Positions 18,942 through 20,801 of a DNA stretch of 64,000 nt are shown in pieces. Below the pieces are notes generated by a model. It had not been told where the DNA came from and made no database searches. It saw nothing but the letters and a program-made list of their open reading frames with translations. Within the stretch, counting starts at the first letter, position 1, and the number at the start of each line of letters is the position of its first letter. This DNA is from Nakamurella panacisegetis (GTDB lineage Bacteria > Actinomycetota > Actinomycetes > Mycobacteriales > Nakamurellaceae), in contig NZ_LT629710.1 in assembly GCF_900104535.1 (NCBI RefSeq), positions 2,728,001-2,792,000 on the forward strand, written 5' to 3'. Both the position numbers and the translations under genes were made by a program.

Positions 18942-20801
18942 ATGACGTCAGCAACCACCAGCGGAAGCGGGACTCCCCGGGGCAACGTGTCCGATCTGCT
19001 CCGGGCCGCGGCAACCGCCTTCGGCGACCATTCAGCACTGATCCTGTCCGACGGCACGCGCTCCTGGCGCGAGTTGGACCGCGCCGTCGACGCCGGTGCG
19101 GCCGAACTGGTGGCCGCTGGTCTCACCCCGGGCAGCCGGGTGGTCGTTTCGCTGGAGACCGGCGCCGATATCATCGCGGCCCTGTTCGCCGTGGCCAGGG
19201 CGGGTCTGGTCGCCGTGCCGATCGGTCCCGATCGTGCCGACCTGTCGTCCATCGTGGCGCGAGTGGGGGCGTCCGCCGCCATCACCGCGCCGGTCACCGT
19301 GCCGGTGCCGATCCAGGTGTCCCCGCAGGCGGTTGCTCTCTGGTGGGGGCGCCCGGCCGCCGAGTTCGATCCCGTCGGGTCGGGCGAGGATCTCGCCGTG
19401 CTGGCCCGGGCGGCCAGCAGTGACCGCCCGGTGATGGTGTCGCACCGGGCCATTCTGGCCGCCGTCGAGGCCATCTCCGCCACTCCGCGACTGGGACTGC
19501 GCGCGGACGACCGCGCGGTCCTGGTGTTGCCCACCTACCACTTGGCCGGATGGGTCACCGCGTTCCTGCCGCTGACCCTGGTCGGCGCGGCCGGCGTCAT
19601 CCCTGATCGTCCGGACGGCACGCATGCCTGGTTGGACACCGTGGTCGCGGCGATCCGGCGGCACCGCGTGACGATCGTTCCCGGGGCGCCGAGCCTGTAC
19701 CGACGGCTGCGAGACGTCAGCGGGGTCGAACGTGCGCTGGCATCCGTCCGCCTGATGACCTCCGGCGCGGCACCCCTGGATCCGGCGGACTTCTCGGCGA
19801 TCAAGGCCCTGACCGGGCAGAGCGTCTGGGAGGGCTACGGGATCTCGGAGTCCGCATCGGTCATCTCGAGCAGCTTGATGACGAAGGCGTCCCGAGTCGG
19901 CTCGGTCGGCAAGCCGCTACGGGGAGTGTCGCTCCGCATCGTCGGCGAGGACGGCGGCGACGTCAATGCCGACGGTCGCCCGGAGAGCGCGGTCGACGAC
20001 CTGGGCGCGGACGCGGTCGGCGGAGAGGTCGGCCGGATCCAGATCAGTGGGCCGACGCTGTTCTCGGGCTACTGGCTGCCACATGACGGGGCGAGCGGAG
20101 CGACGGGGGATGGAACCGGGGCGAGCGGAGCGACGGGGGATGGAACCGGGGCGAGCGGAGCGACGGGGGATGAGACCGGGGCGAGCGGAGCGACGGTCGA
20201 CCTCGACACCAGCGGGATGACCGCCGACGGCTGGTTCACCACCGGCGACCTCGGCTACTTCGACGACGTCGGCGAGCTCCACCTGGTCGACCGGGCGACC
20301 GAGACCATCCGAGTGGCCGGGTTCACGGTGTATCCGCGGGAGATCGAGGACGTCCTGGCCGGCCATCCCTACGTCCGGGACGCCGCTGTGATCGGCGTGA
20401 CCGGTCGGGCCGGAGAGGCGGTGGCGGCCGTCATCGTGCCGCTGTGGGGCAAACACCCGACCGAGGCCGACCTCGACGAGTACGTCGCCGAGCGGCTCCC
20501 GGTGTTCAAGCGTCCGCGGTCGTACCACCTGGTCGACCGGTTGCCCCGCAACGAGCTCGGCCGGATCGACCGCGACCAGGTACGGGCCATGTACCGCTCG
20601 TCAGAGCCGCTGGAGTCCGGCATCATCGACGGGTTGCACGTCCCGTCCGCGGGGGAGGCGGTCGCCCCGCGGCCCGAGGACACACCGGTCGTCCCGCGGA
20701 CCGATCCGGAACCGGCGGCCGAGCTGGGTGAGCTGGGGGCCCGGCTCCCGGGTCGGGAAGGGCGGCGCGGCGACGAGGACACCGACGACGACCTGTTCTG
20801 A
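18942..20801 (+). CDS. AMP-binding (acyl-CoA synthetase-like) protein lacking P-loop and catalytic Lys
   Basis: A 619-residue adenylate-forming-family protein from an ATG with GAGGTG 3-8 bases upstream. Fold markers are present: [14 protein letters not shown] motif (YGISES), [13 protein letters not shown] and [10 protein letters not shown]. The phosphate loop, normally TSGTTGxPKG, is replaced by [15 protein letters not shown] around residue 165. The C-terminal catalytic Lys, normally in GK, is Arg in NELGRIDRD. The true MenE at 36143 has both. It therefore may not activate acids, or may only bind ligand. Residues of about 383-418 are a Gly-Ala-Ser repeat inserted between conserved segments. 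The acidic C-terminus (DEDTDDDLF) is unusual. The next gene is an acyl-CoA dehydrogenase. An open frame reaching much further upstream is a shadow of other genes. Confidence 0.82.
20087..20196 (+). repeat. Four 30-bp tandem repeats inside the AMP-ligase homologue
   Basis: GGGCGAGCGGAGCGACGG recurs at a period of exactly 30 (units from 20087, 20117, 20147 and 20177; the last is partial). It is read as [10 protein letters not shown] or [10 protein letters not shown]. The same core in the same frame occurs at the start of nuoC. Confidence 0.95.

Follow-up and report, generated by a model that had tools for sequence, protein, structure and literature searches.

A dispersed DNA repeat of about 30 bp with local tandem expansion in Nakamurella panacisegetis and other members of the order of Mycobacterium

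The small dispersed repeats (SDRs) of cyanobacteria have a conserved unit of 21–27 bp, and some SDR families, as Elhai et al. are said to have reported, have a common RNA fold and are located within heptamer repeats or an octamer. MIRUs, which are mycobacterial, have units of ~46–101 bp and lie at junctions of co-directional genes, while Rickettsia palindromic elements are palindromic and ~100–150 bp long. DNA uptake signal sequences arise by substitution, not insertion. In the literature, SDRs are presented as a dispersed repeat of about 20 bp (PMC2884548), and REPINs as inverted pairs of imperfect palindromic REPs that are linked to RAYT transposases (PMC3116915).

Here, we describe a repeat with a period close to 30 bp, which forms two arrays in a 64-kb window of Nakamurella panacisegetis DNA ("the window" being the whole stretch that was analysed) and recurs elsewhere in the order of Mycobacterium. 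Like SDRs, it has a conserved piece of 20-odd bp, is dispersed and in places tandem, is probably mobile, and is too short to encode anything; the SDR-type features found were a conserved part of ~23–25 bp, dispersal, and presence or absence at orthologous places. It differs from SDRs, compared by description, in that it belongs to another phylum and that the actinobacterial core does not fold. By analogy, the element may work like cyanobacterial SDRs. With MIRUs, it has in common that both are dispersed mycobacterial tandem repeats of variable copy number, often between co-directional genes (24 of the 30 intergenic sites with both neighbours called). However, its unit of 27–33 bp contrasts with the longer one of MIRUs (again compared by description), and while its intergenic copies show the MIRU-like junction placement, many other copies lie inside genes. 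The element is miniature, non-autonomous, and dispersed like REPINs, but unlike the REPIN/RAYT system it has head-to-tail copies, no palindrome, and no association with Y1 transposases. Similarly, it resembles Rickettsia palindromic elements in forming in-frame inserts in conserved genes as well as copies between genes, but its 27–33 bp units are devoid of a palindrome. Within the limits set by the identity of the relatives compared, neither terminal inverted repeats nor a target-site duplication was found, unlike in MITEs or insertion-sequence derivatives, and the whole-unit gaps at orthologous sites set the element apart from DNA uptake signal sequences.

In the window, the 14-base core GCGAGCGGAGCGAC had seven matches at ≤1 mismatch, all of them exact (positions 20091, 20121, 20151, 20181, 50947, 50977, and 51007), against a mean of 0.24 and a maximum of 2 per window in 100 dinucleotide-preserving shuffles. 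These matches form two arrays on the forward strand, both with a period of 30 bp according to Tandem Repeats Finder and both reading GASGATG... in the sense direction. Array 1 (20087..20196; units at 20088–20117, 20118–20147, and 20148–20177, with an incomplete final unit at 20178–20196) lies inside the forward-strand gene of a 619-aa AMP-binding enzyme with PF00501 and PF13193 domains (18942..20801, a start that we chose within the longer open reading frame 16446–20801). Array 2 (50944..51034, within 50938–51034; units at 50944–50973, 50974–51003, and 51004–51033, whose variable bases are not the same from unit to unit) occupies the first codons of nuoC (50938..51882, forward strand, PF00329). 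The GTG start of nuoC overlaps the stop codon of the gene directly upstream (open reading frame 50234–50941), whose product, judging from its translation, we take to be NuoB-like. A preliminary description of the window had reported four units in the AMP-ligase homologue and three at the nuoC start with one common core, a shared period and reading frame in two genes, and a very low likelihood of chance, all of which our analysis confirmed. Other tandem repeats in the window include a 22-bp unit duplicated in exact tandem (17786–17830), an imperfect 36/18-bp repeat (7800–7887), and an imperfect 15-bp repeat (57549–57597).

The single 5.01-Mb contig that contains the window was searched as the N. 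panacisegetis genome. It contained 16 exact copies of the 14-mer core, versus 3 in a reversed control, and 14 adjacent core pairs at seven loci, all spaced exactly 30 bp and found on both strands, versus none in the reversed control, even though the tandem pattern used for the pair count permitted periods of 24–54. When three mismatches were allowed, the contrast was weak (63 matches vs 43 in the reversed control), hence our use of stricter patterns. At 389468, an eighth array combines units of 30 bp with units of 27 bp, and two further sites, 3268675 and 3975108, each carry one isolated copy. Separately, a 21-bp variant array near 2542003 (within 2541700–2542400) corresponds to the 30-bp unit minus 9 bp between internal GCGA repeats. 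Based on our own gene assignments from open frames, GC3, and Pfam, sense in-gene arrays are located in the AMP-binding enzyme, NuoC, a dimethylglycine-oxidase-like protein, a uricase, and an alpha/beta hydrolase, and all five use the ASGATG frame. Two arrays are antisense, one at the C-terminal end of an ABC ATPase and one in an open frame apparently ahead of an amidohydrolase, and the remaining three sites appear intergenic. When aligned to solved homologues (for the AMP-binding enzyme, the best one), the uricase and the AMP-binding enzyme each show two matched parts separated by an unaligned segment that contains the array, and the array of the dimethylglycine-oxidase-like protein falls in a gapped stretch with conserved blocks on either side. 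We also observed that elements often adjoin a GTGACC start (nuoC, the hydrolase, and the amidohydrolase frame; L064, L069, and window position 50938), and that GTGACC or GTCACC is present in array spacers of several species. This recurrence possibly reflects a longer ancestral unit or a target preference.

We then consider the distribution of the element among relatives. The 16-mer GCGAGCGGAGCGACGG was present in 3 of 61 genomes, i.e., N. panacisegetis itself and two order-level relatives with one copy each, and was absent from 16/16 congeners in an exact-word search. Hence, neither a core confined to the two window genes nor identical repeats in all relatives, the outcomes against which the preliminary description had set its reading, was what the searches returned. 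Across the order, the tandem pattern matched in 19 of 397 genomes, 12 of which were counted as the element (N. panacisegetis and 11 members of family f7). The matches in the other seven (G327, G151, G175, G201, G239, G326, and G090) lack AGCGACGGG and were set aside as other repeats, as was a weak match in congener G003 (L455, G003:C1:1269500-1270200), a different and unrelated tandem array of the 9-bp GGGGCGAGC. In family f16, loci L076, L077, L078, L095, and L096 matched a loose pattern via GCGAGCG..GCGAC words, and two repeats of this family resemble Gly-x-y collagen-like coding repeats. The named collection includes at least 119 matching stretches, 80 of them listed as loci. Among the matches listed, most derive from Mycolicibacterium/Mycobacterium, followed by Gordonia, Rhodococcus, Skermania, Actinomycetospora, and some metagenome bins, along with three contigs labelled Acidobacteriaceae that may be mis-binned. 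Within Mycobacterium, the 17-mer was detected in 105 of 198 genomes at 1–119 copies per bearer, with a reversed control of 0 in most genomes and ≤1 per strand in the rows checked, and the element is the same as in N. panacisegetis, namely GGGGCGAGCGNAGCGACGGGGAA plus variable bases. Carriage by phages or plasmids was considered and rejected: viral_contigs contained no exact match of the tandem pattern, phages and plasmids gave no BLAST match to one 260-bp array region (for which a low-complexity filter may hide repeats), and plasmids had no near match to window positions 19000–21000. A search of the open-access literature, with 17-base core forms and by topic, returned no prior description.

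The ~23–25 bp core, GGGGCGAGCGNAGCGACGGGGAA, is embedded in a unit of variable length. Conservation extends from about −4 to +20 around the 17-mer, as evaluated on 47 single copies among 289 occurrences, with the 17-mer being the search key and only conservation outside of it informative. Over 81 arrays and 161 intervals, a period of 30 bp was by far the most frequent (110 intervals), followed by 33 (13), 27 (12), 31 (11), 32 (9), 29 (5), and 28 bp (1).

Comparison of orthologous sites revealed both empty sites and differences in copy number. For the uricase, all eight aligned congener proteins are devoid of the insert, which amounts to 50 residues (150 bp, 5 × 30 bp) relative to seven of them and 47 residues (141 bp) relative to G009, which itself contains three additional codons. 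The N-terminus of nuoC is variable among 16 congeners, and the array segment varies too much for an exact empty site. In a trio of relatives (G424, G478, and G569), G424 carries at 158389 an in-gene insert of exactly 30 bp that the two others lack. For G478 and G569, 25 element sites could be compared over 667 kb aligned at 94% identity. Five of these are present in one genome and absent from the other (alignment gaps of 33, 32, 60, 29, and 61 bp, of which the 33- and 60-bp ones lie in genes), and four differ in copy number (e.g., 2 vs 5 units of 30, or 3 vs 2 units of 32). Another three display internal deletions of 21, 9, and 9 bp, and 13 show no or small length change in or near the element, with a 15-bp change upstream in one case, although three of these 13 sites resemble native words and not the element. 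The two 9-bp deletions may be compared with the 21-bp variant array, itself a unit minus 9 bp. The element is thus dispersed and either present or absent at orthologous loci.

The arrays themselves carry a record of how they grew. Across 73 arrays, spacers match the flanks of the same array far beyond permuted flanks, the 3′ part corresponding to the left flank (z up to 8.9) and the 5′ part to the right flank (z up to 9.7), and at G478 725884 the left flank is repeated in the spacer. Since spacers match the flanks of their own site, a single insertion came first and was then duplicated locally in tandem to give the array. Taken together, the dispersed copies, the empty sites in orthologues, and the copy-number differences bear out the earlier proposal that a short element spreads between sites and subsequently undergoes tandem expansion, and we consider mobility with local tandem expansion to be very probable.

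Periods differ between genes and intergenic regions. They are a multiple of three for 41 of 42 in-gene arrays vs 23 of 35 intergenic arrays (Fisher p = 0.0003, an approximate value as some arrays are orthologous and the counts not fully independent), while four arrays straddle a gene edge; genes were called with a home-made caller trained on 0.28 million codons. The sole in-gene array with a non-triplet period (L127) ends 2 codons from the gene end. Intergenic arrays have periods of 29–33 with a mode of 30, and 25 of 48 sites in three mycobacterial stretches with ~10% non-coding DNA lie outside called genes, although some of the 48 are orthologous to one another and a few are native look-alikes. 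Sense in-gene elements favor one phase (24/9/1 for phases 0/1/2, p = 6e-6), antisense ones are distributed as 4/7/1, some of these loci being orthologous and the counts not fully independent, and the most frequent in-gene frame reads as a soft A-S-x-A-T-G linker. Because triplet periods prevail only inside genes, the in-frame appearance of the element is a selection filter acting in genes and not a design of the unit, and the idea that a ten-codon unit serves as a means of landing in genes has to be abandoned. Open frames as an adaptation of the unit were also rejected: the share of units open in all six frames, 26 of 41 in genes (expectation from shuffling, 53%) and 14 of 23 between genes (expectation, 39%), does not clearly exceed that of shuffled units.

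We propose that the element is a very small non-autonomous mobile DNA repeat, which arrives on either strand as an insert of ~29–33 bp. New copies would originate at DNA breaks, into which end-joining capture or template switching would paste a short copy of an element already present. The inserted copy is then duplicated locally in tandem, and in genes, selection keeps triplet lengths and tolerable frames. Taken as a whole, we regard this combination of mobile repeat, break-repair capture, tandem duplication, and in-gene filter as somewhat probable; the dispersal, insertion, duplication, and filter are supported directly by the data, and the insertion route, break-repair capture, is put forward more tentatively. 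Ku was present in 27/27 element-bearing genomes tested, which permits end-joining capture without establishing it. Ku was also present in 23 of 28 element-free genomes tested (the five without it being G408 and four of genus g63), and so does not explain which genomes carry the element. Alternatively, a dedicated and so far unrecognised trans-acting enzyme, e.g., an integrase, an endonuclease, or a transposase of another family, could recognise the core and paste copies. The core is nearly invariant across genera, and copy number ranges from 0 to 119 among Mycobacterium genomes, as if an enabling gene came and went; indeed, a core this strict, spanning several genera, is as readily explained by a sequence-specific enzyme as by unspecific capture, if not more so. 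However, Y1 transposases (PF01797) were detected in 4 of 18 high-copy genomes (two as short fragments) vs 5 of 19 zero-copy genomes (p = 1.0), and not in N. panacisegetis. Among 196 neighbour proteins of array loci, the largest recurring clusters cover 4, 4, and 3 loci, so that no gene family stands beside many of them, and neither a transposition intermediate nor an active enzyme was seen. Palindromes and hairpins were not found in the unit, and no target-site duplication was detected in 56 independent single copies (mean longest shared word of 3.79 vs 3.75 when permuted). Single cases that looked convincing by eye were therefore dismissed, although a short or degraded target duplication is possible as the relatives are only 94% identical and the insert ends and the origin of non-core bases are not exact. 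Overall, we consider a dedicated enzyme conceivable but doubtful.

The lack of both a target duplication and a DNA hairpin would also suit an RNA copy that is reverse transcribed and inserted in trans, and N. panacisegetis has one RVT_1 gene. A route of this kind was reportedly proposed for some cyanobacterial SDRs by Elhai et al. in 2008. Yet RVT_1 is no more common in high-copy genomes (5 of 18 above cut-off) than in zero-copy ones (7 of 19, or 8 of 19 when E-values up to 0.001 are admitted; p = 0.73). G424, G560, and G569 have none, and two of these, G424 and G569, carry the element at sites where their relatives do not. In addition, single units folded as RNA do worse than shuffles (z about +1.4 to +2.0), and such retro-mobility seems improbable. 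Y1 transposase and reverse transcriptase were accordingly both rejected as drivers, neither being associated with the element. A different reading would dispense with insertion and see in the arrays a protein linker or DNA-binding site that arose repeatedly by codon or base selection. Small soft residues are typical of protein linkers, and the uniform ASGATG frame of the sense in-gene arrays of N. panacisegetis would agree with this, but the same DNA also occurs in intergenic regions, in either orientation, and in further reading frames, and empty sites differ by whole units instead of scattered substitutions, which makes this reading highly improbable. Finally, the G+C-rich genomes and the modest contrast at three mismatches could hint at chance or base composition, an explanation that is hardly credible given how far the exact and tandem patterns exceed their controls.

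How repeats that are too short to encode anything can spread without transposon ends is an old open question in bacterial genomes. The element described here is present in many copies, with empty sites and copy-number variants among sister species, and many of its hosts are cultured, which makes the route of spread directly testable. Through it, conserved enzymes can also change in length without loss of frame, as with the 50 residues of the uricase, and it provides a set of variable loci. The most far-reaching reading is that a widespread ~30-bp mobile DNA exists in the order of Mycobacterium that uses no transposase, reverse transcriptase, hairpin, or target duplication, and whose copies would be pasted into breaks by host repair, would amplify in tandem, and would go on contributing in-frame ten-residue linkers to conserved enzymes; in this full form, we judge it rather unlikely. 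If the transposase-free, host-repair reading were true, however, the element would count as one of the smallest known mobile elements, and its mode of spread would be new.
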